In this document: positions 26,356-60,811 of the stretch, piece by piece
Layout of the letters: each line of letters starts with the position of its first letter
How positions within the stretch are numbered: the first letter of the stretch is position 1
Source: Sedimentimonas flavescens
Lineage (GTDB): Bacteria; Pseudomonadota; Alphaproteobacteria; Rhodobacterales; Rhodobacteraceae
Assembly: GCF_019264375.1 (NCBI RefSeq)
Contig: NZ_JAHVAI010000003.1
Location: 62,001-126,000, forward strand
Reading direction: 5' to 3'
Length of the DNA stretch: 64,000 nt
The notes under the pieces: model-generated
Told to the model about the DNA's origin: nothing
Database searches by the model: none
What the model saw: the letters and a program-made list of their open reading frames with translations, nothing else
Made by a program: the position numbers and the translations under genes

Positions 26356-26724
26356 ATGAAAAGGCACAGACTGCTTGGTGAGAAAAACCCCTGCCGCATC
26401 GCGGTCGAAGTGGTGGAATACATTGAGGCCAACAAGATCCGTTATGAGCGCGCCCCGCTGTTTCGTCCCCAGACCCAGAGCAAGATTAAGCGCGGGCACC
26501 AGACCCTGCAGAAACGCATCCTGCCGGAGGACTACTTCCTGCCCGGCGATCTCGACGCCTTCGTCGAGCACTACAACCACCAATGCTATCACGAGAGTCT
26601 GGCCAACGTGACGCCCGCCGACGCCTGCTTCGACAGGGCGTCCGCAATGATGAAAACAGCGCGAAAGATCAAGAGACAAACCATCGAGTGTCGGCACTTG
26701 CAGCACCGAAACCTTGCCAACTGA
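26356..26724 (+). mobile_element. IS3-family transposase remnant
   Basis: 122 residues match the C-terminal part of an IS3-type DDE transposase (integrase core): RPQTQSKIKRGHQTLQKRIL, EDYFLPGDLDAFVEHYNHQ, YHESLANVTPADACF. The DDE glutamate region is represented but the Trp of the usual KIERWHQTL is Gly, and a few residues are missing after PGDL. The N-terminal half with the first catalytic aspartates and the OrfA region are absent. It is a dead fragment lying between the coiled-coil and HEPN genes and marks past rearrangement. Confidence 0.88.
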
Positions 26725-26815: not shown

Positions 26816-27487
26816 TTATGCATCCTCGACCACCGGATAGCTCGCAACGCCCCAATCCTCGTTTGGATGTTCCATCATCAGGTCGACAAAGACCGGCACC
26901 AGAAATTCAAGGATCGCCGCGCCGTCGCGGACCTGATCGCGGTTGACCGCGCCGTGCCAGGTCGCCCCCCCGTGCATAATCTGATTGCGAAGCACATAGA
27001 GCCGATCGAAGACGCAGCTAAGCACCTCGACGGTATTCTGGTCGGCGAAGGCGTTGCGGAAAAAGCTGTCCGATTTTCCAAACCGCTCCTTCCAGTTTTC
27101 GTAGCCTTCAATTCCGTTGTGGTGCGACCAGAACGGCGCAAAAACATACGGGTTTCCCATCAGCAGGCGGATGGGACCTGCAAACCGGATCCATAGCGCG
27201 TTGTAGACCACTTTGCTTTGGTCGACTGCCACGAGTTTGGCGAAATAATCCTTGATGCCGCGGCGGGCCGAAGTCCGGAGCACACTGATCCCGGTCTCGT
27301 CATTGGCATAGGCCGCGTTGAAGGCGATCCAGAGAAAAATGAATTTCGCGTCGTGATCATTGCTCTCGAACTCAGCCCGCTTGATCCATGAAATTGCGCG
27401 GTGCACTCGCAGGCCGTGTGATGGGGGAAAACCATCCCTCAGCGCTCGTTGTTTTGCCTTTAATTCTTCGAAAGTCAAAATACTCAA
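26816..27487 (-). CDS. HEPN-domain protein, putative RNase
   Basis: A 223-residue protein with an ApeA-like HEPN fold. The catalytic R-x4-H motif is intact at Arg167-His172 (RNQIMHGG) near the C-terminus, and an earlier helix carries FLWIAFNAAYAN, typical of HEPN proteins in defence and abortive infection. HEPN proteins with this motif cleave RNA. The start is a TTG at 27487 with AAGGGA just upstream. It is downstream of the WYL gene on the same strand (55-base gap), so the two are probably co-transcribed. Target and trigger are unknown. Confidence 0.75.
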   Translation of the reverse strand: MSILTFEELKAKQRALRDGFPPSHGLRVHRAISWIKRAEFESNDHDAKFIFLWIAFNAAYANDETGISVLRTSARRGIKDYFAKLVAVDQSKVVYNALWIRFAGPIRLLMGNPYVFAPFWSHHNGIEGYENWKERFGKSDSFFRNAFADQNTVEVLSCVFDRLYVLRNQIMHGGATWHGAVNRDQVRDGAAILEFLVPVFVDLMMEHPNEDWGVASYPVVEDA

Positions 27488-27542
27488 TGTCCCTTATACA
27501 GATTGCTTTGCTGCGACGAGTTTTACCTTCTTCGAAAAACAT

Positions 27543-28526
27543 TCAAGGTGTTGCGTCGAAGGTTCGCCTTCCGGGTGCGACCAGTTCGCGGAGCCCTGCG
27601 GGCTCCAGGACCTCCACGTCCGAGCCCCATTGATATAGAAACCAAGCCATCTCCAGCCAGCCGCAGGCTGTGAATCTTACGATGAGGCCACCATCGTCTT
27701 GGTCTTCGAAGATCTGATCGGGATGGAAAACGAAGTTACGAGCGGCTGGAGCCGCTTTTGCCGAGAAGCTCCAGACGACAGGGCCGATCTGACCTGGGTC
27801 GTGATAGGAGCCGAAAGCCTCGGCGGCGTGACGTTCGATTTGAAACTCCGGATCGAGCGCGAACCATTCGTCCGTGCATGTCGCGTGGACGATGCGGTCC
27901 ATTCGAAAATGTCTGAGGTCCCGGTCTTCCGCAACATGCGCGACCAGATAGGAGCGCGGCCCCAGCAATACCCCGTGCGGTTCGATCCGGCGGGTCCTAA
28001 GCTCGCCCGATGCCGGTCGATAGGCAATGTCCAGACGATAAGGCCCTCGCAACGCGTCATAAATAGCCTCCGCGACATCCGGTGCGACACGACCACGCGG
28101 TCCGGGTCGCGCCACATTGGCGATTGATTGCAACACCGCTTCGGCATCGCTTTCGGCAGCGCGTGCACGATTTGCAGGCAGGGAGGACACGATGCTGTCA
28201 CGCAGGCGCAAGAGCGTGCGGGCATGGTGATGACGTCCGGCGTCCTGTGCCTCTCTCACAGCGAGATCCAGAGCTTCTACCGTCTCTACGGGTGGTAACG
28301 ATAGCGGTGTGTCAATTGGAGCAAGCAGTTTCCAGGCATGTCGGCGGTCCGGAAGGACGCGCAGTTCTACATTGGGAAACACACTGGCGAGGGCGTCGGT
28401 CATTCGCTGGGCCGTTCGCTTTTCTATGTTGAAGCGGTCCATGATCTCCACGAGTGTGACACCCGCATGCCTTGCACTCGCCATCATGGCCAATTCAATT
28501 AAATCAGACGCTTTGGAATAAGACAT
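27543..28526 (-). CDS. WYL-domain transcriptional regulator
   Basis: A 327-residue regulator with an N-terminal winged HTH (about residues 5-60, GVTLVEIMDRFNIEKRTAQR) and a WYL domain (about 125-205, LDIAYRPASGELRTRRIEPH, YLVAHVAEDRDLRHFRMDRI) plus a C-terminal WCX extension. WYL proteins bind nucleic-acid ligands and often govern phage-defence operons. The divergent nuclease/helicase operon begins 94 bases away, so it is the likely target. The start at 28526 is chosen because the longer frame runs through the neighbouring gene. Confidence 0.92.
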   Translation of the reverse strand: MSYSKASDLIELAMMASARHAGVTLVEIMDRFNIEKRTAQRMTDALASVFPNVELRVLPDRRHAWKLLAPIDTPLSLPPVETVEALDLAVREAQDAGRHHHARTLLRLRDSIVSSLPANRARAAESDAEAVLQSIANVARPGPRGRVAPDVAEAIYDALRGPYRLDIAYRPASGELRTRRIEPHGVLLGPRSYLVAHVAEDRDLRHFRMDRIVHATCTDEWFALDPEFQIERHAAEAFGSYHDPGQIGPVVWSFSAKAAPAARNFVFHPDQIFEDQDDGGLIVRFTACGWLEMAWFLYQWGSDVEVLEPAGLRELVAPGRRTFDATP

Positions 28527-28620
28527 AATAGACCATGACTCTTTTTGACACCCTCGCAACCTATTCTGGTCCGGAGGCAAAAATCGAGCGAGTCGTTTTT
28601 CAGATGGAGGCTCGCGGGGA

Positions 28621-31600
28621 ATGAAAATTGAAAACGGGGAGTTTTTCTTCTCGGCATCCGATTTGATGCGGTTTGCGGGCTGTGCCCACGCGACCACGAT
28701 GGATATCGCCCGGCTTGAGGGACGGGCGCCGGATCCGCGCGAGGACGACGCCGAGGCGGCACTGTTGCAGGAGGCCGGTGATGCGCATGAGGCTTCGCAC
28801 CTCGACGGGTTGAAGGCTTCTGGCAAGTCGGTGATCGAAATTTCGCGCGAAGGACTGGACCTCGGGGCGGCGCGCCAGACGACCCTCGAGGCGCTTCGCA
28901 AAGGGCCGGAAGTGGTCTTTCAGGCAGCTTTTTCGGGTGCGCGTTGGGGGGGATGGTCCGACTTCCTCGAGCGGGTCCAAACGCCGTCGGACCTCGGCTC
29001 ATTTTCCTATGAAGTCACGGACACCAAGCTAAAACGCAAGCCGGACCCCAAACACCTATTGCAACTGGTGCTCTATTCCGACCTCTTGGCAGAGTTGCAG
29101 GGCGTGATGCCCGAAAAGGCTCATATCGAGCTCGGCAATGGCGAGCGCGTGTCTTTCCGGCTGGCCGATTATGCGTCCTACGCTCGGCGGATGCGGGCGC
29201 GTCTTGAGGACTTCGTCAATAGTCGCCCCGAGACCCGGCCCAAACGCTGCGGGGCCTGCGGTCTTTGTCGCTGGCAAGATCACTGCCAGAGCGTCTGGGA
29301 TGAAGCCGACAGCCTGTATAACGTGGCCAATATCTCGGCCGTTCAGATCGCCAAACTCGAAGCCGCCGGCATCACCACCATGGCTGCTCTCGCGGAAACG
29401 ACCGAGCGTGTGCCTCGGATTTCTCAGGCGACATTGGAACGGCTTGTCGTTCAGGCGCAGCTTCAGCACACCCGCAAGGCTGGTGGTCCCGAGTATCGGC
29501 TGCGTGAAAGCGAGCCGGGGAAGGGGTTCGATCTCTTGCCACAACCGGTTCTCGGTGATGTGTTCTACGACATCGAGGGCGATCCACATTACGAGGGCGG
29601 TCTGGAATATCTGCATGGGATCTGGGCCGATGGGGCCTTTACTGCGTTCTGGGCGCATGATCATCCCGCAGAAAAAGCAGCTCTCGTTGCGTTGTTCGAT
29701 TGGTTTCGCGCTCGGCTCGGGGCCTATCCGCAGGCTCGCATATACCACTATGCGCCATATGAGGTGACCGCGCTGAAGCGGCTCACGACGAAATACGGGG
29801 TTGGTGAGGCGTTTCTCGACCGGCTTCTGCGCGAGCGCCGCTTTGTCGACCTCTACGCCGTCGTGCGCGGCGGCGTGCTCGCATCGGAAAAGAACTATTC
29901 GATCAAGTCGATGGAGGCGTTTTACCGCGGAAAGCGCGATGGGGAGGTGACGACGTCCGGCGGCTCGGTGGTGGCCTATGAAGAGTGGCGGCGCACGCAC
30001 GATGACCGCATCCTCGAAGAGATACGCGCCTATAACGAGGTCGATTGCGTCTCTACCGAAGAGCTGCGCAATTGGCTGGTGTCGATCCGGCCCGAGGGGC
30101 CCTGGCCCGTGTTTGAGGAGAGCGCCGAAGCAAAGGAGGTCGAAGAGGACGAGCGTAACGCAGCCTTGCGCGCGCTACTGGCCGGGTCGGATCTGGACCA
30201 AGCCCGGCAGAGCATGCTCTTCGATCTCGCGCAATATCACGCGCGCGAGGACAAACCGGTTTATTGGTCGATCCATGACAGTCTGGCCAAGGACGAGGAA
30301 GAGCTTATCGACAGCGTCGATGCGGTCGGAGGACTGACGTTGATCGGGGCGCCCGAGGCGGTAAAGAGCTCGAAGATGCAGCGATACGCCTTTCCGCCAC
30401 AGGAGACGCGGCTTCGGGTCGGAGCGATGCCGACGGTCGGCTACAACGACGCGGGCTTCATTCAGACCATGACCCTGATCGAGTTCGACGCCGAGGCTGG
30501 CGAGCTTGCGCTGAAGATTGGCAACAAGTCGGCGCATCTCTTGGCCGAGGTGACGGGCCTTCATCCCGGCACACCGCTCAATACAAAAGCGATCCGCGCG
30601 GCGATCCTACGGGTGATCGAGGATCAATGCGCTGACAAGCAGTTCCGCGCTGCCGAGGCGCTCTTGTCGCGCGATGCGCCGCGCTTTCTCTCCGGCCCCC
30701 GCGTCGATGTGCTCATGGAGCGCGAGACAGTCGAGGGCACCATCGACGCGGTCAGTGAACTCGACGGCTCGGTCCTGCCGATCCAAGGCCCGCCGGGCAC
30801 CGGTAAGACCTATGTCACCGCCCACGCGATTATGGCGTTGGTGCGGGCAGGCAAGCGGGTGGCGGTCGCGTCGACCAGTCACGAGGCGGTGCGGAACGTG
30901 TTGATGCAGGTGATTGCGGCGCAGGGGTTTGATGATCCAGAGTTCGACATAGTCCACAAGCTGTCTGACGACACCTATCCCGACGACTGCCCGGTCCATC
31001 GTGCCTATGACAATGACGATGCGTATCTTTCGACCGCTTCAGTGGTGGGTGGGACTGCGTTTTTGTTCTCACGGCCCGAGTTTGAACAGGCGTTCGATGT
31101 GCTTTTCATCGACGAGGCCGGGCAGGTGGGGCTCGCCAATACTCTTGCGATGAGCACTTGCGCTCGTAACCTGGTCCTTATCGGCGATCCCCGGCAGTTG
31201 CCGCAGGTGGTTCAGGGAGCGCATCCCGAGCCTGCCAACCTGTCGTGCCTCGACTGGATGCAGGGTGACGCCGCTGCGATCCCGAAGGACCGGGGCATTT
31301 TTCTCCCTGTTACGCGCCGGATGAACCCCGATGTGTGCAGGTTCATTTCCGATCAGGTCTACGAGGGCCACTTGCGCAGCCACCCCGACACCGCGCGCCA
31401 ATGTGTCGGGAAGGTGCCAAACCTGCCTTCGACCGGCGCTCATTTCATCGAGGTTCCGCACGAAGGTAACGCTCAGATTGCACGCGAAGAGGTCGATGCC
31501 ATCCGGCAGGCCGTGGGCGCACTTCTGCAAGGCACTTGGACGGACAAGTCCGGTGACACGCGGCCCCTGCGCCAGTCCGATATCATCGTGGTAGCGCCTT

Positions 31601-31929
31601 ACAACCTTCAGGTGAACGCGCTCAGACGGGCCTTGCCCGACGGCATACGCGTCGGCACGGTCGACAAATTTCAGGGGCAGGAGGCTCCGGTCTGCCTCGT
31701 GTCGATGACCGCGTCCTCCGGGGATGAAATGCCTCGCGGAATGGAGTTCCTGCTTTCTCGCGAACGGATCAATGTCGCGGTGTCACGCGCCCAAGGCCTG
31801 GCGTTGGTTTTTGGGTCTCCACGTCTGCTGGATGCGAAATGCACGACCGTGGAACAAATGTGCCTTGTCAATACGCTCTGCGCCTTGGCGGAAATGAGCC
31901 GCACACCCAAGCTGCGCGCGGCTAAATAG
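28621..31929 (+). CDS. RecB-like nuclease/RNase H-like/DNA2-NAM7 helicase fusion
   Basis: An 1102-residue protein of the TM0106 RecB-like nuclease type. The N-terminal nuclease has Cys21 plus Cys210-213-216-221 (RCGACGLCRWQDHC), fitting a Cas4/AddB-style iron-sulfur cluster, and a PD-(D/E)XK core Glu131/Asp134/Lys136 (EVTDTKLKRK). Next is an RNase H-like exonuclease region with Asp317/Glu319 (FYDIEGDP). The C-terminal superfamily 1 helicase has Walker A GPPGTGKT from Gly723, DEAG at Asp831, VTRRMNP, TVDKFQGQE and SRERINVAVSRAQG. It is first in a tightly packed operon and faces the WYL regulator. DNA end-processing or degradation is expected. Confidence 0.9.
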   Translation: MKIENGEFFFSASDLMRFAGCAHATTMDIARLEGRAPDPREDDAEAALLQEAGDAHEASHLDGLKASGKSVIEISREGLDLGAARQTTLEALRKGPEVVFQAAFSGARWGGWSDFLERVQTPSDLGSFSYEVTDTKLKRKPDPKHLLQLVLYSDLLAELQGVMPEKAHIELGNGERVSFRLADYASYARRMRARLEDFVNSRPETRPKRCGACGLCRWQDHCQSVWDEADSLYNVANISAVQIAKLEAAGITTMAALAETTERVPRISQATLERLVVQAQLQHTRKAGGPEYRLRESEPGKGFDLLPQPVLGDVFYDIEGDPHYEGGLEYLHGIWADGAFTAFWAHDHPAEKAALVALFDWFRARLGAYPQARIYHYAPYEVTALKRLTTKYGVGEAFLDRLLRERRFVDLYAVVRGGVLASEKNYSIKSMEAFYRGKRDGEVTTSGGSVVAYEEWRRTHDDRILEEIRAYNEVDCVSTEELRNWLVSIRPEGPWPVFEESAEAKEVEEDERNAALRALLAGSDLDQARQSMLFDLAQYHAREDKPVYWSIHDSLAKDEEELIDSVDAVGGLTLIGAPEAVKSSKMQRYAFPPQETRLRVGAMPTVGYNDAGFIQTMTLIEFDAEAGELALKIGNKSAHLLAEVTGLHPGTPLNTKAIRAAILRVIEDQCADKQFRAAEALLSRDAPRFLSGPRVDVLMERETVEGTIDAVSELDGSVLPIQGPPGTGKTYVTAHAIMALVRAGKRVAVASTSHEAVRNVLMQVIAAQGFDDPEFDIVHKLSDDTYPDDCPVHRAYDNDDAYLSTASVVGGTAFLFSRPEFEQAFDVLFIDEAGQVGLANTLAMSTCARNLVLIGDPRQLPQVVQGAHPEPANLSCLDWMQGDAAAIPKDRGIFLPVTRRMNPDVCRFISDQVYEGHLRSHPDTARQCVGKVPNLPSTGAHFIEVPHEGNAQIAREEVDAIRQAVGALLQGTWTDKSGDTRPLRQSDIIVVAPYNLQVNALRRALPDGIRVGTVDKFQGQEAPVCLVSMTASSGDEMPRGMEFLLSRERINVAVSRAQGLALVFGSPRLLDAKCTTVEQMCLVNTLCALAEMSRTPKLRAAK

Positions 31930-31938
31930 GAGATGCGA

Positions 31939-32346
31939 ATGTCCCAGAACCCTATCATCGCGAAAATCCCGCTCATGACGAGGGAGCAACGCTACGCCGC
32001 AGCCAAGAATGCGACACGTTTTCTGTCACTGGATGATCCCCGCAAGGCCGATGCCGAAGCGATCCTTGGGGCCATCGACGCCTACGAAATCGAGTATTTC
32101 GAGCCGCGGCGAATGACAGTCGGCCTGTTGGAATGGGAGCCTCACGATGGGCAATACGTGATGCGTGGCTTCTACGAAGGAAAGGTCGTTGCGACGATCA
32201 CATATACGGATACGCATACCGCCGGCCGCAAGAACGTGTTCGCGCTCCGTGTCGGCGGCGTCGAACGCGGAGAATTGTTCCATCATGTGGCGGATGCACG
32301 GGAAGCGTCAGCCCGAATCTTTGCCGAAGAACGGGGGACGTCATGA
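31939..32346 (+). CDS. Small conserved-looking protein in the nuclease operon
   Basis: A 135-residue acidic protein of no recognised family, with LLEWEPHDGQYVMRGFYEGK and GGVERGELFHHVAD in a probable beta-rich core. ATG at 31939 is six bases after AGGAG; another ATG at 31933 is too close to the ribosome site. It begins 9 bases after the nuclease/helicase and its TGA overlaps the ATG of the SbcD-like gene. Such tight placement suggests it is an integral subunit or adaptor. Confidence 0.75.
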   Translation: MSQNPIIAKIPLMTREQRYAAAKNATRFLSLDDPRKADAEAILGAIDAYEIEYFEPRRMTVGLLEWEPHDGQYVMRGFYEGKVVATITYTDTHTAGRKNVFALRVGGVERGELFHHVADAREASARIFAEERGTS

Positions 32347-33455
32347 TCCGCTTCATTCATACCTCGGATATCCACCTCGGTAAGCCTTTCGGGCGCTTTC
32401 CCGAGGATGTGCGGGCGCGTTTGCGGCAGTCCCGTCAGGACAGTCTCGACACTTTGGCGCAGGTGGCTCGGTCACAGTGCGCGAGCCATATTCTGTTGGC
32501 TGGCGATACGTTCGACGCCGAAACGCCTGCGCGGACGGTGCTGCGCCACGCCATGAACGCGATGGCGGATGCGGCAGACGTGACCTGGGTTCTCATGCCG
32601 GGAAACCACGATCATCTGAAGGCGGCGGAAATCTGGGACGTGCTGCGCCGTGACGCGCCCGTTAACGTCGTCCTCGCGCTCGAGCCGAGCCCGCTGCCTT
32701 TGGTCGAGGGCGCCTTCTGCCTACCCGCGCCCTGCACGAGCCGTAATCCGGGCCGCGATCTGACGGAATGGTATGACGCTTGCGCGACCGGTGATGCCAT
32801 CCGCATCGGGCTCGCTCATGGATCAATCCGCGATTTTCGCTCGGTGGACGAGATGGGAGGCGAAAGCGGAGCGGTCATCGCACCGGATCGCGCCAAGCGC
32901 GCGGAGCTGGACTATCTGGCGTTCGGAGATTGGCACGGGCGGATCGAAGTGGCGTCGAACACTTGGTATTCCGGCACGCCGGAGGCCGACAGTTTCAAGC
33001 CGCACCAACCTTCGGGCGTCCTGAGTGTCGAGATCAAAGAACGAGGCGCACCAGCGAAAGTCTTGCAAGTCGAAACAGGCAAGATCGACTGGACGACCCT
33101 GTCGATCGACTTGCTCGCTGGTGACAACGGGGCAGAGCAGCTCCGTGCGGCCTTGCCCGACCTGCGTTGTCGTCGCCGGACGATGATCGACATTCGACCG
33201 ACGGGCCAGCTCGGCCTCGGAGCGCGAGCGGCGCTCGAGCAGGCGGTCCACGACACTGCGCCGGACTTCATGTGGTGCGATTACGACCTGTCGGGCCTCG
33301 GCACGGCCCACGATGCGGGCGATCTGGATCACATCGACGACCGAGGTGCGGTGCGCGATGCGGCCGAGGCTCTGGCCAAAGCGGCCGACACCGGCGACGA
33401 GGTCGCCGCAGCGGCGCTGACGCGGCTCTTTTCCTACGCGATGGAGGACAAATGA
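32343..33455 (+). CDS. SbcD/Mre11/YhaO-like metallophosphoesterase
   Basis: A 370-residue calcineurin-like nuclease. All metal-binding motifs are present: SDIHLG (Asp9, His11), AGDTFD, MPGNHDH, GLAHGS and GDWHG. This is the pattern of SbcD, Mre11 and YhaO DNA exonucleases. The ATG lies inside the stop of the preceding small gene, and the end overlaps the ATPase gene by four bases (ATGA). Pairing with an SMC-like ATPase next door is the standard SbcCD/Mre11-Rad50 arrangement. Probably a double-strand end nuclease of this cluster rather than the housekeeping SbcD. Confidence 0.9.
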   Translation: MIRFIHTSDIHLGKPFGRFPEDVRARLRQSRQDSLDTLAQVARSQCASHILLAGDTFDAETPARTVLRHAMNAMADAADVTWVLMPGNHDHLKAAEIWDVLRRDAPVNVVLALEPSPLPLVEGAFCLPAPCTSRNPGRDLTEWYDACATGDAIRIGLAHGSIRDFRSVDEMGGESGAVIAPDRAKRAELDYLAFGDWHGRIEVASNTWYSGTPEADSFKPHQPSGVLSVEIKERGAPAKVLQVETGKIDWTTLSIDLLAGDNGAEQLRAALPDLRCRRRTMIDIRPTGQLGLGARAALEQAVHDTAPDFMWCDYDLSGLGTAHDAGDLDHIDDRGAVRDAAEALAKAADTGDEVAAAALTRLFSYAMEDK

Positions 33456-36073
33456 AACTCCGGTCCCTGACACTCGTAAATGTGCGCAAGTTCGGTGGGA
33501 AATCCGTGTCTATCGAGGGGTTCGGCGACGGGGTCAGCGTGATCTCCGAAGCGAACGAATTTGGCAAATCCACCTTCTTCGACGCGCTCCACGCGCTGTT
33601 CTTCGAGAAATACAGCACCACGGTCAAATCTGTGAAATCGCTGCGCCCGCATGCGGGCGGGGGCGTCAAGGTCGCTGCGCAGGTCGAGATTGGAGGCGCT
33701 CGGTTCGATGTCGAAAAGCGGTTTCTCGCAAGAGCCGGCGCCAGCGTGACCGAGACGGCGACGGGGCGCGTTATCGCGCGAGACGACGAGGCGGAGGCAT
33801 GGGTTGCCGGACATCTAAGTGACGCCAACAGAGGCCCGGCAGGGCTTTTGTGGGTGCGTCAGGGCGTGCTCGGACTTGAACCTGCCGACAGTAAACCTGC
33901 TGATCGAGAAAAACTGGCCGAGGTGCGTCGGGACCTGCTCAGCTCAGTCGCGGGCGAGATTGACCAGGTCACCGGCGGCCGCACCATGGACCGCATCCTG
34001 AGGCGCTGCGAGGAAGACCTCGGAGTGTTTGCGTCTGTCAAGACCCTGAGCCCACGGGGGCCATGGAAGGAGGCGCGTGATCTGGAAGCCGATCTGAGTG
34101 CCGAGCTCTCTGATCTGGACCAAAAGGTATCTGAGCTTCGCGATGCTTTGGAGGCCCGTCGCAAGATCGACGACGAACTTGCCCGGTTGACTGATCCGGC
34201 GGAAACAGACCGCCGGCGATGCGATCTCGACGCAGCCACACAGAACTTGCAGACGGCTGAAGCGCACTCCCGGACCTGCGAAGTGGCTGAGAGCGCCCTC
34301 TCGATGGCGAGGCTTGTCCTGAGGGAAGCTACCAGACGGTCGGACACCCGCCGTGAGGCGGTGGAACAGGCCCGGATCGCTGAAGCCAAAGTGCAGAAAA
34401 CTCAAGAAACCCTTGATCTGTCAAAAGCCGCGCGGGAGGCGGCTCAGGCATCTGAAGGCGAGGCGAGAAACGCCTTGGACAAACTGGTCGCGGCGACGCT
34501 GGACTTGCGCGATGAGCTGCGGCTTGCCGAGCGGCAGGCGGCGGCGCACGAGGCCGAAAATAATCTCGAGCGGCTCATGAGAGTCCATGGTGAGGCTCAG
34601 AAACATCTCCAGGCCATGTCCGAGGCCAGGGCCCGCCTTTCCGACAACAGGGTGACACCGGAGCTGGCCGACACCGTAGATGCCGCTCAACGATTGACCG
34701 ACCGGCTCACCGCGCAGATCGCCGCGCGCCGAGTCTCGGTGACGATTGATTATGTCGGGGCGCGCAGGGTCACCAAGGATGGGGGCGAGGTTCCCGACGG
34801 GGTTCCGGTCGCACTCGCGAACGCTGACGTGCTGATGGTGCCCGGGATCGGCACGCTTCGCTTTGCGCTCCCGGATGCAGGCACAGATGATCTTTCCGCT
34901 CAGTTGGCTGATGCCGAGCGGACTTTGGCAGGCCGGTTGGCGGACTGCGCGGTCTCGGCTGTGGCTCAGGTTCATGAACGGCTCGCTGAACGCAGGCGGG
35001 ACGAAGCCGTGATCGACCTCGCCTTGAATTCGCTCAAGGTTCTCGCGCCCGATGGGACGGAGGTGCTGGACATCGCCATTGCAAAGGCGCGTGGAAAAAT
35101 TGCCGATGCCCCGGAAGGCGACGTGCGGGAGGCTGAAGAGGTCTCGACCGAATTCGAAGCTGCAATCGAGGCGGAGCAGGCGGGGCGGCAGGCCTGGGAG
35201 CAGGCGCGCGAGCGCGTGACCGAGGCGCGGATCGAAGCCGAGGGCGCCGAGGCGAAGATGCAGGCGGCCTGGGACGAAGCGAAACGGACCAAGGCAGCGC
35301 TTGACCGCCTCGAGGACGAAGCCGAGCTCGAGAGCAATCTCGCCGAAGCCCGATTGGACGAGGAGGCCAAGTCAGCAGCACTGAACGACCTGACGCAGGA
35401 CGCGCCCGATCTCGAAACGGCTCAGGCCAATCTGCATCGCGCCAAGACCGCTTTCGACAACGCGCGCAGTCGACTGAGCACTCTGCGTGAAGGCCGCGCG
35501 ACCTTGACTGGCCAGATCAACACCCACGCGGATGGAGGCATTGAAGAGCGCCGTGCTGAAGTCGCCGAACTGCTCGAGGAGGCGACGAAGCGCGCGGCCC
35601 GCTATGCCTTCGAGGTCGCGGCCCTCGTGCGGCTTCGCGATGACTTGCAGGCCGCGCGCGATCAGGCCCGCGAGTTCTATTTCAAGCCGATCCAGACCGA
35701 GCTCGCGCCGCTCCTGCGTATCCTCCACGATGACGCGCAGATCGAATGGGAGAGCGATCAAATTCTTCCCGGGGCTTTGCAGCGGGGTGGCGACGTCGAA
35801 GACTTCGAAACCCTTTCCGGCGGCACTCAAGAGCAGATCGCGATTCTCACCCGTCTGGCTTTTGCCCGGCTCTTGGCGAGGCGCGGCGAGCATGTCCCGA
35901 TCATACTTGATGACGCGCTGGTCTATTCTGATGATGATCGGATCGTGAAAATGTTCACCGCGCTCAATCGGGTCGCAGCCAACCAGCAGATCATTGTGTT
36001 TTCGTGTCGGCAGTTGGCCTTTGCGGGTCTGGGCGGTGAGCGGCCCAGAATTTCGGAAGTGTCAATGGCGTAA
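33452..36073 (+). CDS. SbcC/YhaN/Rad50-like AAA ATPase
   Basis: An 873-residue SMC-like ATPase. N-terminal Walker A in the YhaN style (ANEFGKSTF, Gly38-Lys39-Ser40), a long alanine/glutamate-rich coiled coil at about 200-780 interrupted by a globular segment around 430-500 (TIDYVGARRVTKDGG), then the ABC signature LSGGTQEQIAI at Leu788 and Walker B LDDALVYSDDDR at Asp820-821. No zinc-hook CxxC is visible at the coiled-coil apex, as in YhaN rather than Rad50. It should work with the SbcD-like nuclease encoded just upstream. Confidence 0.9.
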   Translation: MKLRSLTLVNVRKFGGKSVSIEGFGDGVSVISEANEFGKSTFFDALHALFFEKYSTTVKSVKSLRPHAGGGVKVAAQVEIGGARFDVEKRFLARAGASVTETATGRVIARDDEAEAWVAGHLSDANRGPAGLLWVRQGVLGLEPADSKPADREKLAEVRRDLLSSVAGEIDQVTGGRTMDRILRRCEEDLGVFASVKTLSPRGPWKEARDLEADLSAELSDLDQKVSELRDALEARRKIDDELARLTDPAETDRRRCDLDAATQNLQTAEAHSRTCEVAESALSMARLVLREATRRSDTRREAVEQARIAEAKVQKTQETLDLSKAAREAAQASEGEARNALDKLVAATLDLRDELRLAERQAAAHEAENNLERLMRVHGEAQKHLQAMSEARARLSDNRVTPELADTVDAAQRLTDRLTAQIAARRVSVTIDYVGARRVTKDGGEVPDGVPVALANADVLMVPGIGTLRFALPDAGTDDLSAQLADAERTLAGRLADCAVSAVAQVHERLAERRRDEAVIDLALNSLKVLAPDGTEVLDIAIAKARGKIADAPEGDVREAEEVSTEFEAAIEAEQAGRQAWEQARERVTEARIEAEGAEAKMQAAWDEAKRTKAALDRLEDEAELESNLAEARLDEEAKSAALNDLTQDAPDLETAQANLHRAKTAFDNARSRLSTLREGRATLTGQINTHADGGIEERRAEVAELLEEATKRAARYAFEVAALVRLRDDLQAARDQAREFYFKPIQTELAPLLRILHDDAQIEWESDQILPGALQRGGDVEDFETLSGGTQEQIAILTRLAFARLLARRGEHVPIILDDALVYSDDDRIVKMFTALNRVAANQQIIVFSCRQLAFAGLGGERPRISEVSMA

Positions 36074-36188
36074 TGAGCTCTTGAACTTAGAGCGACGTGT
36101 TCGCTCTGGTTCGGCAGGCGCGAGTTGAAATGAGTCTTTTGCGGTGCATGCAACGCGCACGGCAGTCAATACCTTGAGGAAACGTAAA

Positions 36189-39100
36189 ATGCCAGATCAA
36201 GCGTCGGACGCGATCATTGTGCGAAGAGGTGATCGGGTTGGATCCGGTGAGGTAGCATCAATGTCTCCCCGTGCCTTCGTCGAAACACTGGCCTCAAACA
36301 AAATCAAAGGTTTCCTGGGGACCATCGACGCAGACGGCACCTATTTGACCGAAATGGCCAAGAGCTTGACCGCGCAAACGACGAACGTGGCAACAGATTA
36401 CCGCGACCGTTTTCTGGTCGAGCTTATTCAAAACGCATACGACGCGCAGCCCGCCGGACAGAGTGACGGTCGGATTAACGTTACGCTTGATCTCAGGGCG
36501 GGCGAACACGGGGCTCTCTACATCGCTAACACGGGCCTGCCCTTTACGTCTCACAACGTAAAGTCGCTTTCCGACATCGCTTTGTCGGCTAAGTTCGTCG
36601 GTCAATCTATAGGCAACAAGGGCCTCGGATTTCGTAGCGTCATTCAAATCACCGATGATCCACAGATATTTTCTCAGAATATGGACCGGGTTGCTCGTGA
36701 CCGTTTTCAGGGCTTTTGCTTTAGGTTCGCCGCGCAGAGGGACTTTGACACGCTGATCGAGAACCCCATCCATCGAACCCTCGCCAAGAAGGATTTGCCC
36801 AAATTCAACATTCCGGTCTGGTTGGAGGAGCAGGACCAAGTGGTTTGCGAGTTTGCGCGGCAGGGGATGTCTACTGTGATTGTCTTGCCATTCCGGGACG
36901 CCTCCGCGACAGACGCTACGCTTCGGAAAGTCGAAGAGCTTGAGGCACAGGACGTTCCTATGCATCTCTTCCTCGACCGGATGTCGGAACTTAAGGTGCG
37001 CGTCATTTCCGATGCCGGTGAGCTCATGAAGAGTTTTTCGTTCTCACGCTCCGAAGAACGGCACGAGTTGCTCGGTCTTACGTTTTCGCGTGTCGCGTTG
37101 GGGGCGAGCGGCAATTATTTAGTGGCCCGTAAAGATGTGAGCGAAGAACGGATGAAAGCCACAATTGCGAAAGCGGTTGAGGTTAATGAGTTGGATACCT
37201 ACTGGAATGAGTGGCGCGGAGCAGGGGATGTCGCCGTGGCTGTTCGTCTCGATGCACCTCATCCGGCGTCCCGTATCTATACCTATCTCCCGATGGGGGA
37301 ACAGGCCGAAGCCCCGTTCTCCGGTTTTTTGCAGGGCAGTTTTTTTCCGTCTTCAAACCGGAAAAATCTCGACGCCGAGCATCTTCTCAACGCGTTGATC
37401 CTGGAGAATGCGAGGATTTTGGTCGCCGACAGTATCTGGCACCTTGTTGGTGCATCTGGTGCAGATCTTCCTGTTTCGTTGAGCGACACAGAAGCAGCCA
37501 CCGTGGTGGCAGAGCTGATGTCGTGGCGTGCCGTAAGCAGCCTCAAAACCAAAACGGATCTCTGTGAGGCAATGGCTGAGGTTCTGGTTGCCCGCTTTGA
37601 CTGCAAGAAACTGGATCAGGCTATCATCGTGCCTTGCGTTGAAATGGTCGATGGGGAGCGTCGACTTGTTTGGAAGACGCCGGAACATGCGCGAAACTGG
37701 CCCTCAGGGCTATCGGTCTTCGGAGACGCGGCGGTGGCTGAAAGGGCGCGGGAAATGCATCTGTGGCCTATTTGGCCGATGTCCGAAGCGCTAAGGGCGA
37801 GATTGAGTGAATTCCTTGGTCAGGGTTGCGAGGCCTATCGCGAAACGCCAAGCGGCGAAGAGCGTGCTCGCCTGGTCGAAATTGTCGCTAAATGTCTTTC
37901 GTCGTCTTCGCCAAAGAGCACGACGAAATGGACGGACTACTTCTCAGAATTGCCGGTATTCATGGAAACCTCAGCGAAGAGCCTCGAGGGATTGCGGGTT
38001 CTGGTCGGGGAGGATGGCACGCTCTGTCGCGCGATGTCTCATGCGCCGAATTCGGTGCCGGGGAAAAGAGATAATAAGCGCCGTCGCAGAAAGGAAATCG
38101 CGGTCTTTTCACCTCCCGATCGACGGCGACTTGGCGAAGCGGATGACCTTGAGATTGAACCTCCAGCCAGGCTGAGAGAGCGTTTCGACTTTTTGTGGAG
38201 CGAGCTGTCATGGCACGATGATCTTTCGAAAACCCGTCAGTTCCTACAAGACAACAGTCTCGTGGAAGAATTTGACCGGGAGGCCATCTTCAGGCGCCTT
38301 GATCAGATGTTGCGAGATGAGGGCAACAAGGAGGTTCTCCGAGGGGGGCTGCGCTGGGCCTTCGAATTATGGCGACAAGCGCGCTCATCTCCCCGGCCGT
38401 TTCGGATGCAACCAACGTTTCGGTTTCGTGTGCCTGTCCAAAATGGAGACTACGTTGACGCGAAAGAAGTGATCTTCTCGGCGAGCTGGCCGGAAGAGAC
38501 GTTGGGGTCGCTGCTCGAGGGATTTCTCGATGTCGCACCAGACGCTCTGGACGAAATCAAAGGCGTTCGCCGACAGCTATTGGCAGAAACGAAACACCAT
38601 GCCTTTCTTAACAGGCATATTGAGGATTGGGTCGCTTTTCTCTCTGAACTCGGTGTTCGCCGAGGGCTTCACCCAATTCGAAGGACTTCCCGCAAGGCTT
38701 TGTTCAGAGCGGGTGAGATCCAAGATTTTTCGTTTGTCGAGCATTATGGGGTGATGCCTGCTTTCGGCAGCTTCTGGCGAAGCTATGTCCTAAGCGAGGA
38801 TCAAAATGCCCTCAGTTTACAACATACGACGAATTACCTAATTTCCGAGCCTTTGTTATGGTTCCCCTGCCAAGGCGACTTTGAGGCATTCAGCCCGGCT
38901 TGCCTGCAAAAGTATGCGATGCTCGTCTTGAAATGGTTGGAAGCGAAGCCCGATTTCCCTTCGCATGTAGAGGTTCATCATCAGCATTACACCTATGCTG
39001 ATACCAGACATTGGCCTATGCCGCTTACCGCGTTCCTCCGAGCTGCGCCCTGGCTGCCGATGGAAGGGGGAAAGGCGTCTGAAGATGCAATAGCGTCGAC

Positions 39101-41750
39101 CCTTACTTCAGACATCTGGCTCGGCGATATCGACAAAGAGCTCTTTTTGCCGTTCCTGCCGCGCCCGAGGATAGAAATTAGGCGGTTGATCGAGCGAAGT
39201 GGGGCTCAACTCCTCCTGAGCCTGCGAAACCAAGCCGGGTTTAATCAGATAGGTAAAGACAATACGTTGGCGGATCAGCTCGCCATGCTGTCCAATTGTT
39301 TTGTCGCCGGAGAGTTCGATCCATTCTATCGGCAACGCTTGTTTAACCTGTATTCAGAGACTTGGCGTCGGTTTCTCAAGAACGTAGCCGCTTCTGGCCG
39401 GGCGGCGGAAGGCATTCGAAGGCCGACGGAGGTTTTGGTGCAGCGTGGCCAGCAGGTGGAAGCGGTCAATCTTCATGATCAGGACGACGAGAATCTGAAA
39501 GATCCTGTCTATATTTGCGATACGGGTCGACTTGGCGATCTCGATCTCTTGATGGCAAGCGGTCAGCTTTTCTTCAATTTGCCGGACTTTGACGGTGAGA
39601 CGACAGGGGAAATGTTCGAGGCCCTATACGGAAATCGTGTCCGCCGGGTTTCGAAAGTCGAATACACGCTTCAGGCTGACCACAGAGAAATCGCGGACGT
39701 GACCGGTGAGCCGATCAGAAACCTGGTGCCGGAGCTGCGGGCAATGATTGCGGTCGCCATTGAGGCATTGAAGGGCACCGAAGCACAGAGGCTGCCGTCG
39801 AACCGCTTGGAGGTGCTACGAAATCTCGATCTGATCATGCTCGCGCAAGCCAAAACCGTCCGCTTCTTTATCGACGGGATTAGCATTGCTATCGAGGATC
39901 TGAACCGAAAATCGTTCAGTTTCACACGCAACGATGGCAAAACCTTGATCTTGCTCAACGCGACAGGTGAATTGAATTGGGAGATCCTGGACGGTTGCAT
40001 TCTTCAGATCTGTGAGGCTCTGGGGCATGTCAGCCTTGCTTCGCATCTTCGATTGCTCGTATCTAAGCGCGGTTCGCGCGACCTTGGCGCGCCGGGCGAG
40101 AGTATTCAGGATCAAGTCTCTGCGATGGCCGATACTTTGTTCTTGTCGCAAATTGAAAAGCGCGCTGCGCTCGCTACTCTTAGCGAAGGGTTGGAAACAC
40201 GCGTGCCTCTCCTGCGCGCGGTTATACATTACGCTGCGGGATCGGATGCCCTTCATAAATTTGATGATCAGTTCGAGGCATTGGACAATGATCCAAGATG
40301 CCTCCGGACACTTTGGGAAGATCTGTTGAAGGATACCCCACTAAGCCCGGACATGTTGGACGAGGTGATACGAGATGGTCACTCAGCACGGAACTTCAGG
40401 GAGATCCTCGGGTTAGAGTTTGCAGATTTCAACAAAAGCATGTTTGCCGTCGGGGAGGAAATGGATCTCTATCCCGAGCAGCATCGCCGGGCCTTGGACG
40501 CATTTGTGCGCGAGAACGCCCTCAGAATCACGCAATGCATCTTGTTTTCAGCGCGCACCTCACTGGAGGCAATTAAGGCGTTTGCGGGTTATGGCGACCT
40601 ACGGTCAGCCATTTATGAAATCGAGCCGGACGGGTCGTGGCTGGAGTTATACGAAGTGCCGCCCGAGGACCTGCTTAGAGGCCGCGTCAATGCGTGGCTT
40701 CAAGAAAACGGCGCGCTTGTCATGGATGATGACTTGGCGAACCCAAACGAGTTGACGGATGTTCGCTTCCACAACGGGACGCTTTTTCTGAACTTCTTTA
40801 AGAAAGCCGAGCCGATTGTGCGAGCGTGGTGTGCCAAGATGGGCGCACTTAATCGGGGAGGCCATTTCACGCAGCAGAATTCGGCTGACGCCGTTCGTAA
40901 GATGTTAGATCAAGTCGGCGCCCTCGACTTCAAGAAGCTCGACGAGGACATGCTCGTGCGTTGGTGCATTGAGATCGGCGTGTGGCCAGACGGCATGAAA
41001 GCATCCTTGAAGCTCGATGAGCTTGGGCTCTCCGACGATGACCTGAAGCAAGAAGAAGTCGAGGCGCGCAAGGTCAGCGAAGAGCGAAAGCGCGCTGCGC
41101 GCTCAGTGCCATTTAATGGTCGCATGATCGATCCCGAAGGCGGCGTGGACTTTGGAGTCTTGACCGAAGAAATCCGCGCGTCGCTGCCCAAAGGCGAGAT
41201 TTCTCGTTCTCTGAGTTTTCAGGCTTCTCTGGCGGCGACTGAGGACGATGATCATCGGCCGATCGGATCAAAGAAGAGCAGGAAAAAGCATGGCTCAGGG
41301 GGACTTCCGCGGAGCCCGGCCGAAAAGACTGAGTTTATTGGGCGGATAGGTGAAATCGTCGTGTATTCTTGGCTGAAGAATATCTTGAAAGGTCAAGATG
41401 TCGATGCAGCTTGGAAGTCGAGAAACGGCGGCTACATCACTGGTCGAGATGGCGATGACGGACTTGGATATGACTTCGAGGTATCATACGACAAGCAAAC
41501 TTGGCGTATCGAAGTCAAAGCCAGTCTGAACGATCCTCAGGCATTTGAGCTTGGCGAGACGGAGGTCGCTGCGGCGAGGGAAGCGGCAAAGGGTAGGAGC
41601 GGTGTCCGATACAAAATCGCCTACGTCAGCAATGTGTCGGATCCCAAAGAAACCCGAATTGAGCTTCTCCCAAACCCGATGACCGACGAGGGGGCTTCCT
41701 GTTTGAAGATGCGAGGCGAAGGAATTCGTTACAGTTTCAAGCGGCTGTGA
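36189..41750 (+). CDS. Giant sacsin-like HSP90-type ATPase with C-terminal nuclease-like (DUF3883) domain
   Basis: An 1853-residue protein. An N-terminal GHKL/HSP90-like ATP site shows the N-box LVELIQNAYDAQ (Glu78, Asn82) and glycine motif IGNKGLGFRSV (Gly142-147), as in sacsin repeats. A very long middle region (about 350-1680) has no domain I recognise. The C-terminus (about 1720-1853) is a DUF3883-like PD-(D/E)XK fold, with IGRIGEIVVYSWL, Asp1762 (GYDFEV) and Glu1775-x-Lys1777 (RIEVKAS). The ATG at 36189 follows GAGGAA. It starts 115 bases after the ATPase gene on the same strand, so it may belong to the same system or a joined unit. Codon use seems more AT-rich than its neighbours. Confidence 0.85.
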   Translation: MPDQASDAIIVRRGDRVGSGEVASMSPRAFVETLASNKIKGFLGTIDADGTYLTEMAKSLTAQTTNVATDYRDRFLVELIQNAYDAQPAGQSDGRINVTLDLRAGEHGALYIANTGLPFTSHNVKSLSDIALSAKFVGQSIGNKGLGFRSVIQITDDPQIFSQNMDRVARDRFQGFCFRFAAQRDFDTLIENPIHRTLAKKDLPKFNIPVWLEEQDQVVCEFARQGMSTVIVLPFRDASATDATLRKVEELEAQDVPMHLFLDRMSELKVRVISDAGELMKSFSFSRSEERHELLGLTFSRVALGASGNYLVARKDVSEERMKATIAKAVEVNELDTYWNEWRGAGDVAVAVRLDAPHPASRIYTYLPMGEQAEAPFSGFLQGSFFPSSNRKNLDAEHLLNALILENARILVADSIWHLVGASGADLPVSLSDTEAATVVAELMSWRAVSSLKTKTDLCEAMAEVLVARFDCKKLDQAIIVPCVEMVDGERRLVWKTPEHARNWPSGLSVFGDAAVAERAREMHLWPIWPMSEALRARLSEFLGQGCEAYRETPSGEERARLVEIVAKCLSSSSPKSTTKWTDYFSELPVFMETSAKSLEGLRVLVGEDGTLCRAMSHAPNSVPGKRDNKRRRRKEIAVFSPPDRRRLGEADDLEIEPPARLRERFDFLWSELSWHDDLSKTRQFLQDNSLVEEFDREAIFRRLDQMLRDEGNKEVLRGGLRWAFELWRQARSSPRPFRMQPTFRFRVPVQNGDYVDAKEVIFSASWPEETLGSLLEGFLDVAPDALDEIKGVRRQLLAETKHHAFLNRHIEDWVAFLSELGVRRGLHPIRRTSRKALFRAGEIQDFSFVEHYGVMPAFGSFWRSYVLSEDQNALSLQHTTNYLISEPLLWFPCQGDFEAFSPACLQKYAMLVLKWLEAKPDFPSHVEVHHQHYTYADTRHWPMPLTAFLRAAPWLPMEGGKASEDAIASTLTSDIWLGDIDKELFLPFLPRPRIEIRRLIERSGAQLLLSLRNQAGFNQIGKDNTLADQLAMLSNCFVAGEFDPFYRQRLFNLYSETWRRFLKNVAASGRAAEGIRRPTEVLVQRGQQVEAVNLHDQDDENLKDPVYICDTGRLGDLDLLMASGQLFFNLPDFDGETTGEMFEALYGNRVRRVSKVEYTLQADHREIADVTGEPIRNLVPELRAMIAVAIEALKGTEAQRLPSNRLEVLRNLDLIMLAQAKTVRFFIDGISIAIEDLNRKSFSFTRNDGKTLILLNATGELNWEILDGCILQICEALGHVSLASHLRLLVSKRGSRDLGAPGESIQDQVSAMADTLFLSQIEKRAALATLSEGLETRVPLLRAVIHYAAGSDALHKFDDQFEALDNDPRCLRTLWEDLLKDTPLSPDMLDEVIRDGHSARNFREILGLEFADFNKSMFAVGEEMDLYPEQHRRALDAFVRENALRITQCILFSARTSLEAIKAFAGYGDLRSAIYEIEPDGSWLELYEVPPEDLLRGRVNAWLQENGALVMDDDLANPNELTDVRFHNGTLFLNFFKKAEPIVRAWCAKMGALNRGGHFTQQNSADAVRKMLDQVGALDFKKLDEDMLVRWCIEIGVWPDGMKASLKLDELGLSDDDLKQEEVEARKVSEERKRAARSVPFNGRMIDPEGGVDFGVLTEEIRASLPKGEISRSLSFQASLAATEDDDHRPIGSKKSRKKHGSGGLPRSPAEKTEFIGRIGEIVVYSWLKNILKGQDVDAAWKSRNGGYITGRDGDDGLGYDFEVSYDKQTWRIEVKASLNDPQAFELGETEVAAAREAAKGRSGVRYKIAYVSNVSDPKETRIELLPNPMTDEGASCLKMRGEGIRYSFKRL

Positions 41751-46723: not shown

Positions 46724-48115
46724 TCAGATGAAAGCGAACATTCCATGATCCGCCGCTTTCGTAATGTCTTGAAGTTCTTGCTGTGCGCGCATCCGCTGCG
46801 CCATTGTTAGCGCATCACCCTGGTAAGCTGCCGCAGTCTGATGGCTGGTCTGGCCACAGGCTGACATCGCCATATCTGTTCCGGCCTGGCCAAGTTTGAT
46901 GCCGAGAAAAGTATGTAACACCGTTCGGGCGATATGCTCGCCAGTGCCCACCTCTCGACGCCATGCATCGGAGACATAGTTGTAGGCGACCGGTTTTCCG
47001 GCATGCGTGATGAACAGGGCGCGCCTGGAGGCGAGGCAGTCCTGCCGCATCTGGTCCAGCCAGTCTGGGTCGCACCCTCGCAGGATCAGCGCATCGATGA
47101 ACGTGTTCAGTCGTGTGTCAATCTTTGCTGCCCAGTGATAGCCGGTTTTCGACAGTCGAGCATCTATGGCATAGGCCTTGTCGGCCCAGAATAGGGTTTT
47201 CCCAAATATCAGTCGCGTGTCAGCGAGTCGCACAGGCATCACCGAAAAAAGCGCAATCGCCGCGGCGCGGTTTCGCTGCGCATGGCGTTCACGCGGGCAA
47301 GGGAGCGCTTGGGCTGCGGCGAGGATCGTGCTTGCTTTCTCGATTAGCGCCACGGGCGAATAGCCGGTGTTCTGAAGATGCGCGAATTTCTGCTTCGGCG
47401 CCTTGGCCGCCTTTGCCTCGTAGGTGCGGCTGAGCTCTGCAAGAAGATCCACGGTCGCCTCGTCGGCGCCAGTGTAGCGCGCGAATTTCAACAGAGCGGA
47501 GAACGAGGCGCGCAGCGTGGCCGCGGCGAGTTGCCGTTCGCGCAGGTCTCGCGCATAGGCGCGCACGGCCGCCTCCGAGAGCTGGTCTGGCAGGTCGGCA
47601 TCGCGTGCGGAGCGCAGAAGCTGCCGTGCCTTCATCTTGAGCGTTGGCAGCATACCTGCGCTCGGTGCTGTCTCGCGGTTTCGTTCGAAGCCCGCCTCCA
47701 TGGCGGTGAACGCGTCCTGCCAAGTTTCTGGCAATTGCTCATAGGGCACCGATTTATCGATACGGCGCGGGCGCTTCGTCGCGTTAAGGGCTGTCCCGAG
47801 ATAGGCGCGCATCTTGACGAGGATCGCTGCGCGGAGCGCGATCGTCGACGGGTGTCCGGGAAAGACCGCATCAATCGCGCGGTTCAGTCTGAGAAGTCGG
47901 CTGTGAGACCTGCTATGCTGATCGAAAGTCAGAAAGTCTTGCTGGCTCAGGGCGCGTGTATCTGCAATCTTGAGGTCCTCGATGTATCTCAGAAAATCAT
48001 CAAGGATCCGAAGGTTGTCGGTCGAGGCCGCGTCGAGTCCGGGATCGCCGATCAGCGGATCCCAGCGCGCATTTTGCAGGATCTGCGCCTTGGTCCGTCG
48101 GTCGCGCGCGGTCAT
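46724..48115 (-). CDS. Tyrosine recombinase, second of a tandem pair
   Basis: A 463-residue integrase-like protein. The catalytic region shows Arg296 (VMPVRLADTR), His394-x2-Arg397 (EHIARTVLHTFLG), a following His, and Tyr431 (TSHQTAAAYQGD), a somewhat divergent R-HxxR-H-Y set. The N-terminal part is helical, as expected for core-binding. The ATG at 48115 overlaps the stop of the upstream recombinase by four bases (ATGA), so they are made together. Paired tyrosine recombinases usually act jointly to move a mobile element. Confidence 0.8.
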   Translation of the reverse strand: MTARDRRTKAQILQNARWDPLIGDPGLDAASTDNLRILDDFLRYIEDLKIADTRALSQQDFLTFDQHSRSHSRLLRLNRAIDAVFPGHPSTIALRAAILVKMRAYLGTALNATKRPRRIDKSVPYEQLPETWQDAFTAMEAGFERNRETAPSAGMLPTLKMKARQLLRSARDADLPDQLSEAAVRAYARDLRERQLAAATLRASFSALLKFARYTGADEATVDLLAELSRTYEAKAAKAPKQKFAHLQNTGYSPVALIEKASTILAAAQALPCPRERHAQRNRAAAIALFSVMPVRLADTRLIFGKTLFWADKAYAIDARLSKTGYHWAAKIDTRLNTFIDALILRGCDPDWLDQMRQDCLASRRALFITHAGKPVAYNYVSDAWRREVGTGEHIARTVLHTFLGIKLGQAGTDMAMSACGQTSHQTAAAYQGDALTMAQRMRAQQELQDITKAADHGMFAFI

Positions 48116-59666: not shown

Positions 59667-59675
59667 GGCACGCGC

Positions 59676-60811
59676 ATGTTTCAGGTGAACCGCTCCGAAA
59701 ACCGGCTGAGAAAACTTGAAGAGAAACGCTTCGCTGACCTCAATCTGCGGGAACGCGACCACCTGCAGGAATGGCTCGCCAATCAGCCTGATGCACTCGG
59801 CGAGGATCTCCTGATCATCCAGAAGGAGTTCGACGGTTTCGCCGATACGCGCGAGCGTCTGGATCTCCTGGCCATCGACGGTGACGGGCAGTTGGTTGTG
59901 ATTGAGAACAAGCTCGACGATTCCGGCCGGGATGTCGCCTGGCAGGCTCTGAAATACGCGGCCTATGCCTCGAGCCTGACCAAGTCGCAGATCATCGATA
60001 TCTACCAGCAGTATCTCGATCGGCACGAAGGCGGCGGCAATGCGGTGCAGCGCATCTGCGAGTTTTTGGATGTGGAGGCACTCGACGAGGTGGTGCTGAA
60101 TGCGGGGCATGATCAACGCCTGATGTTCATTGCTGCAAATTTTCGGAAGGAAGTGACCTCGACGGTTCTGTGGCTGCGCGAGCACCGCATCGATGCGCGC
60201 TGCTTTAAGGTCATCCCCTATGTGTTTGGTTCAGAACTGTTTGTTGATATTCAACCGGTGATCCCCACGCCTGAGGCTGCAGATTTCATGATCGGGATGG
60301 CGGAAAAGGAAAGCGAAGAAAAATCTGCCAAGGGGGTGCAGCAAAGGCGACACAAACTGCGACTGAGGTATTGGGAACTCGTGCTTCGCGAACTCCGGGC
60401 AGCGGGCCTGAGCAGATACGAGACCGTGTCACCGTCTCGCGAGAACTGGATTTCCTGTGGCTCAGGGGTAGGTTCAATCATTTTCGGCCTTGCATTCACC
60501 CAATCTGAGGCGCGGGTCGAAGTCATTTTTCAGGGGCCGGACAAGGCGCGCAACAAGCTCTTGTTCGACGAGCTTTGCGCTCGACAGGTTGAATTTGACA
60601 GCGCTTTCGGCGCGCCTCTCCAATGGTTGAGAATGGACGACAGCAAGATGTCAAAGATCGTGCAGGTCGCGCCATTTGATGGATTCAACGAGGAAGTGTG
60701 GCCGGAGATGGCCGCCTGGATGACATCCGAGATGTCAAAATTGCAGTCGACTTTCATGAAACCGATTTCGCAACTCAGGGGGCGGAATTCCGGCTCGGAG
60801 GAAGTCAGCTA

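Follow-up and report, generated by a model that had tools for sequence, protein, structure and literature searches.

Catalogues of defence systems mostly treat each system as a fixed set of genes. Tiamat is a single-gene system, and Mokosh requires a full-length MkoA together with MkoB, or MkoC. Repressors of the BrxR/CapW type combine a winged helix-turn-helix (wHTH), a WYL and a WCX domain, with an operator at the regulated promoter, and Mre11–Rad50 with Dna2 is the known eukaryotic end-resection pairing. Here we describe a cluster of seven genes in a 64,000-nucleotide stretch of the Sedimentimonas flavescens genome (contig NZ_JAHVAI010000003.1, positions 62,001 to 126,000; the whole stretch is called the window), in which a core made of a HEPN-like gene, a WYL regulator gene and a Dna2-like nuclease-helicase gene is accompanied by partners that vary among relatives and include relatives of Tiamat, McrBC and PsyrT. 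Passages of PMC4012209 report WYL domains fused to superfamily 1 (SF1) helicases and to nucleases, and the main text of PMC11090510 includes HEPN ribonucleases (RNases) in some CoCoNuTs. For the BREX-related DUF499 (Hma) systems, the main text of PMC12839542 describes a helicase-nuclease effector with a HEPN RNase proposed as a last resort.

Across alphaproteobacterial orders the recurring unit was HEPN, WYL and nuclease-helicase, and the genes that followed varied. Searches with the SbcD-like, HEPN-like and nuclease-helicase proteins covered 394 genomes of the window's family. The nuclease-helicase was present in 36 of them (E ≤ 1e-100), the HEPN-like gene in 50 (E ≤ 0.001, a few being fragments) and the SbcD-like gene in 134 (E ≤ 0.001). 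The HEPN-like and nuclease-helicase genes were found together in 31 genomes, for an expectation of 4.6. Neighbourhoods were counted from tblastn maps only, which cover 145 stretches with some repeats. Thirty-nine nuclease-helicase stretches were tabulated, and 27 of these belonged to the close clade (more than 50% identical) and had flanks longer than 3 kb on each side. Within 6 kb, the HEPN gene was found at 25 of the 27 loci and the WYL gene at 24; L140 and L148 had entered through the HEPN search only, and the HEPN count was 23 of 25 without them. At three well-flanked distant relatives (36–43% identical) none of the six other tabulated gene types was nearby. The three-gene core was also carried by plasmids of Rhodobacterales (L125, L127), Hyphomicrobiales (L124) and Sphingomonadales (L129). 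The distances between HEPN sequences followed those between nuclease-helicases (r 0.86, n 30; 0 of 5000 permutations as high), as did the WYL distances (r 0.72, n 31) and the SbcD distances (r 0.67, n 9; 2 of 5000 permutations as high). The sequence-only reading, made from the letters of the window without database searches, had taken the seven genes for one cassette; recurrence across orders was seen for HEPN, WYL and nuclease-helicase, and not for the genes behind them. No description of the core was found in the literature covered, which left out most subscription papers and bioRxiv and consisted partly of excerpts, and an earlier account may exist. The nuclease-helicase, WYL and HEPN genes were all present on a contig of a viral collection (L190, 865–6397).

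The whole cassette was found again in two places. When genome contigs were scanned with the small protein, a single relative came up, from a Maritimibacter assembly (L003), and there the seven genes all keep the order and orientation that they have in the window. The identities were 87% for HEPN, 82% for WYL, 78% for the nuclease-helicase, 67% for the small protein, 75% for SbcD, 59% for YhaN and 71% for the sacsin-type protein. L079, a stretch from the same family as the window, also carried all seven genes, more diverged; one extra open frame lay between the YhaN and sacsin genes, and the stretch ended inside the latter (41% identical). The seven open frames located and ordered by the sequence-only reading at 26816–41750 were confirmed, and their association is real and conserved, as the order recurs in L003 and L079.

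The genes behind the nuclease-helicase were placed on a tree of this protein (43 rows, excluding matches with coverage of 80% or less or identity of 35% or less; 11 named loci were dropped as repeats or fragments or, for L128, at 41% identity). The accompanying module was McrBC in 12 rows, sacsin-type in five (weak in L006), and a small protein with a sacsin-type protein in one. SbcD–YhaN occurred with the small and sacsin-type proteins in three rows, with the small protein in two, alone in one and upstream in three. The remaining labels were a giant protein (one row), a small protein with a RecQ-type helicase (one row) and no recognised module (14 rows). These labels required 20 changes on the tree, for a minimum of 9 and a mean of 25.4 after shuffling, and 0 of 200 shufflings were as low; when the modules recognised in 29 rows were pooled into four kinds, 10 changes were needed among those rows. 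The modules were clustered on the tree, yet often changed. In L159, the DEAD-type helicase behind the nuclease-helicase matched PsyrT (995.7 bits). In L186, a 2480-residue protein with a sacsin-type start, a TmtA-like giant, overlapped the nuclease-helicase stop and was followed by a DrmD match (755 bits). In L125, L132, L144, L151 and L152 a sacsin-like gene came after the nuclease-helicase, either immediately or with a small frame in between. The module junction was a 4-base overlap in L186 and in L140, where the nuclease-helicase is a fragment, and showed no gap in L124 and L005; it was looser in L125 and L151 (90–110 nt), and SbcD–YhaN was located upstream of the nuclease-helicase in L085, L088 and L090. 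A fixed seven-gene system was rejected on this variation of the modules.

Two further neighbourhoods can be mentioned here. A small protein annotated as DUF4357 lay between the nuclease-helicase and sacsin genes in L132 (7623–7949) and L144, and similar residues, compared by eye, began the McrB frames of L136 and L176; this protein may fill the role that the small protein has in the window. In L006 (519–8921), another SbcD/Rad50-like pair, unlike that of the window, stood beside WYL and nuclease-helicase genes, DUF4007 and a cysteine desulfurase, neighbours that are suggestive of DNA phosphorothioation genes.

The domains of the nuclease-helicase were a TIGR03491 RecB-like nuclease (residues 11–486), an RNase_H_2 domain (314–487) and an AAA_11/AAA_12 SF1 helicase of the UPF1-like type. 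Residues C21, C213, C216, C222, E131, K136, D317, E319, D475, K729, D831 and E832 were kept in 98–100% of 44 aligned nuclease-helicases, the window's among them, K136 and the Walker A K729 in 100%. By analogy, the four conserved cysteines would hold an iron–sulfur cluster. The helicase half matched, by sequence, the solved structures of SMUBP-2, DNA2 and others. Dna2-like is used here for a predicted RecB-like nuclease fused to an SF1 (UPF1-like) helicase, and orthology to Dna2 is not claimed. A second pair of WYL and nuclease-helicase genes, 64% identical, was present in the same genome on a short stretch (L002, 1–4922, contig C31), and its nuclease-helicase grouped on the tree with that of L138, a locus bearing McrBC.

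The layout of the cassette is given in Table 1. The gap between the nuclease-helicase and the small protein gene was +9 nt, with an alternative open start of the latter at 31933. The small protein and SbcD genes, and the SbcD and YhaN genes, overlapped by 4 bases, and the sacsin-type gene began 115 bases past the YhaN stop, or at a GTG start at 36144 giving 1868 residues. The guanine plus cytosine (GC) fraction was 0.543 in this last gene compared to 0.616–0.646 in the nuclease-helicase, SbcD and YhaN genes; it was also low, 0.552, in the HEPN gene.

Table 1. Features of the cassette, in coordinates of the window.
Feature	Position	Strand	Remark
HEPN-like protein, 223 aa	26816..27487	-	Putative RNase arm of the core; no significant hit to profiles or solved structures
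WYL-WCX transcription regulator, 327 aa	27543..28526	-	Same strand as HEPN, divergent from nuclease-helicase
Divergent intergenic region, 94 bp	28527..28620		Contains TTGACACC on the nuclease-helicase strand
Dna2-like nuclease-helicase, 1102 aa	28621..31929	+	RecB-like nuclease (TM0106 family), RNase H-like exonuclease, SF1 helicase
Small protein, fold unassigned, 135 aa	31939..32346	+	Adaptor-like position after the nuclease-helicase
SbcD/Mre11-like metallophosphoesterase, 370 aa	32343..33455	+	Metal-site motifs kept in relatives
YhaN/Rad50-like ATPase, 873 aa	33452..36073	+	Adjoins the SbcD-like gene in relatives
Sacsin-type GHKL ATPase with NOV_C/DUF3883 nuclease-like end, 1853 aa	36189..41750	+	Tiamat TmtA homologue

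The surroundings fit an island. The GC fraction of the window was 0.62–0.66 before 20 kb and 0.54–0.64 after, and a tyrosine-integrase-like gene (48112–49875, minus strand) and an integrase-core fragment (26356–26724, plus strand) were located near the cassette. Type I restriction-modification genes HsdM, HsdS and HsdR occupied positions 56009–63898, with two more open frames between HsdS and HsdR.

The regulator contained WYL and WCX domains, and no wHTH model of Pfam matched it. The 150 nt upstream of the WYL gene were examined in 47 regions. The motif TTGACACC was present on the nuclease-helicase strand in 23 of them, many of these rows being related so that they do not amount to 23 independent events, at 13–34 nt from the WYL start (19 nt in the window); base shuffling predicted 0.1 occurrence in the 47 regions. 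All 23 were divergent WYL/nuclease-helicase loci, of which there were 29; none of the 18 remaining WYL loci had the motif. It is possible that TTGACACC is a −35 box or an operator. A loose palindrome pattern beside it caught 5 of the 47 regions, the window not being among them, and no operator is claimed from it.

The SbcD-like protein contained a Metallophos domain (Pfam), and its residues D9, H11, D55, N88, H89, H159 and H198 were present in 96–100% of 73 aligned sequences, the window's among them. The YhaN-like protein showed AAA_23 and SMC-type ends, AAA_23 and SMC_N both scoring below the cut-off of Pfam. As in pairs of the MRN/SbcCD type, metallophosphoesterase motifs were accompanied by an ATPase partner of the ATP-binding cassette type. 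Among the strongest 73 of the listed SbcD places, which were fetched, the YhaN-like gene was adjacent in 72. A HEPN match was present in nine of these stretches, six of them with a nuclease-helicase, and in 53 all three core genes (HEPN, WYL, nuclease-helicase) were missing. The SbcD tree (74 rows, excluding matches with coverage of 70% or less or identity of 35% or less) comprised 51 rows of the pair alone, 11 with WYL only and 12 linked to HEPN or nuclease-helicase. The 12 linked rows required 10 changes, at least 8 of them forced by supported branches, compared to 11.2 for shuffled labels. These changes correspond to repeated joining or leaving, that is gains or losses, the count giving no direction. 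In L200 the pair was found among transport and peptidase genes. The small protein had no match among plasmids, nor in Pfam, PADLOC, NCBIfam or PHROGs, and two marginal ones among 385 genomes of the class; its model, built from two sequences, was too poor for a structure search (predicted local distance difference test, pLDDT, of 59).

In the HEPN-like protein, residues 167–172 are RNQIMH, and the RNxxxH motif was kept in all 55 aligned sequences, window included. The predicted model was all-helical (pLDDT 82), and relatives bear the HEPN name in plasmid records; no match was obtained in Pfam, NCBIfam, PADLOC or PHROG. The HEPN label was drawn from the motif, the helical model and the annotation of relatives, and the RNase role is a predicted one.

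The last gene started with a SACS domain and ended with NOV_C (Pfam), and by eye it kept GHKL-like motifs and, in the NOV_C end, an ExK motif. The TmtA model PDLC03971 matched residues 38–1867 of the 1868-residue frame with 1440.5 bits, over positions 11–1780 of the 1782 of the profile. By this full-length match, the last gene encodes a Tiamat (TmtA) homologue. Relatives of 34–36% identity were present on three plasmids with no core gene annotated within 6 kb. The sequence-only reading had recognised no named system in the cassette. This holds for the first six genes, with no complete model of PADLOC-DB 2023 and, besides generic WYL models, only partial or weak matches to system proteins; it fails for the last gene, the TmtA homologue. 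A known complete system for the first six genes was rejected (PADLOC, NCBIfam). No core protein of Wadjet, Lamassu, Zorya, Druantia, DISARM, BREX or Septu was recognised in the seven genes with the PADLOC models, the weak or partial matches being LmuB (28.9 bits), DruK (23.1 bits) and JetC (12.2 bits). The notion of one undescribed cassette of seven had to be given up: the last gene is a Tiamat homologue, the SbcD–YhaN pair mostly stood without the core, and the modules vary.

We propose that the locus is a modular nuclease-helicase system, antiviral or anti-plasmid, with an inducible DNA-end-processing core, exchangeable partners and an RNase arm, and we give this proposal about one chance in two. 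In this model the WYL protein would repress both divergent promoters until infection, signalled by a nucleic acid or a nucleotide, released it. SbcD–YhaN would open or clip foreign DNA ends; the nuclease-helicase would load there, unwind and degrade, comparable to resection by eukaryotic Mre11–Rad50 and Dna2. The HEPN protein would cleave RNA, a dormancy or suicide arm for when degradation fails, and the Tiamat-like protein would be a further, separable layer. DNA-end sensing and degradation together with an RNA-cleaving arm, as the sequence-only reading had suggested, would be compatible with the catalytic motifs kept.

Several observations weigh against this proposal. The near-random scatter of core-linked rows on the SbcD tree fits a loose neighbourhood as well as repeated recruitment. 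The distance correlations may partly reflect host relatedness, because the SbcD correlation was also rare under permutation. The 14 rows of the nuclease-helicase tree without a recognised module result only in part from contig ends. The HEPN-like gene is less faithful: in the 24 stretches where it had 4 kb or more on each side, the nuclease-helicase was within 6 kb in only 15, WYL in 15 and both in 13. It stood beside Zorya-like genes in L158 (1441–9051; ZorD 1294.9 bits, ZorA 869.4 bits) and beside a PD-(D/E)XK and UvrD pair in L126 and L133, and its profile and model, compared with solved structures, gave no significant hit. Passages of PMC3710099 already describe, as a general theme, HEPN genes that share operons with restriction or McrBC genes or are fused to SF1 helicases.

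The core, SbcD–YhaN and Tiamat could also be three independent systems, neighbours in a defence island, possibly co-regulated and with no common substrate. This explanation is tentative, though nearly as good as the modular one because SbcD–YhaN and relatives of the Tiamat gene also occur without the core, the former in 53 of 73 stretches and the latter on three plasmids with no core gene annotated within 6 kb. Close relatives carry different modules, and the GC of the last gene deviates, that of HEPN being low too. Against independence, the frame of the module abuts the nuclease-helicase or overlaps it in several loci, and in the window the frames of the small protein, SbcD and YhaN are interlocked, an argument weakened by the 90–110 nt gaps and by the upstream SbcD–YhaN pairs. 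An operon for DNA repair or plasmid maintenance, in which nuclease-helicase, SbcD and YhaN would resect breaks and HEPN would be an addiction toxin keeping the element, is improbable: Dna2-like and Mre11–Rad50-like enzymes generally serve in repair, conjugative plasmids carry many of the relatives (15 of 25 HEPN plasmids) and the L200 pair has transport and peptidase neighbours, but the recognised modules, SbcD–YhaN apart, are restriction or defence genes (McrBC, TmtA-like, PsyrT-like, DrmD), and the nuclease-helicase and HEPN genes are patchy in the family.

The modular proposal raises a testable question: does a named system of this kind work by itself, or does it serve as a cartridge in a common core that processes DNA ends? 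A bolder version, which we regard as rather doubtful, would see here a mobile bacterial counterpart of eukaryotic Mre11–Rad50–Dna2 resection serving as immunity, with an inducible core (WYL, nuclease-helicase, HEPN) and a cartridge slot for makers or openers of breaks (SbcD–YhaN, McrBC, PsyrT-type helicase, sacsin/Tiamat); systems now catalogued separately would then at times be cartridges of one machine. If the resection model is true, parts like those of eukaryotic end resection would serve bacterial immunity.

Compared to Tiamat, the window homologue shares the GHKL/sacsin start and the NOV_C end and is instead the last gene behind six others. Among PADLOC models, Mokosh (MkoA/MkoC) scored highest with the nuclease-helicase (154.7 bits), in a partial match whose best stretch, residues 899–1094, lies in the C-terminal helicase region; TIGR03491 and RNase_H_2 account for the nuclease and RNase H-like parts, the gene partners differ, and no MkoB match was found by PADLOC among the seven proteins. 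Of the domains of BrxR/CapW repressors, WYL and WCX were matched in the regulator and no wHTH model was, and the conserved TTGACACC element could be either the operator of such a repressor or a −35 box. McrBC, behind the nuclease-helicase in 12 of the 43 tree rows, is absent among the window's seven genes. For the CoCoNuTs, the terms RecB, TM0106 and Cas4 occur 0 times in the main text of PMC11090510. The seven genes contain neither the DUF499 ATPase nor a methyltransferase (Pfam) of the DUF499 (Hma) systems, and the main text of PMC12839542 has 0 occurrences of Mre11, SbcD, sacsin, Dna2 and RecB. With eukaryotic MRN–Dna2(–RecQ) the parts are alike, as a set not of common descent: an Mre11-like and a Rad50-like protein with a putative iron–sulfur nuclease fused to an SF1 helicase, to which L159 adds its DEAD-type PsyrT-like helicase. 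By eye, the YhaN-like protein differs in having no CxxC zinc-hook motif, and the window has in addition an RNase H-like domain and the coupled HEPN-like and WYL genes.

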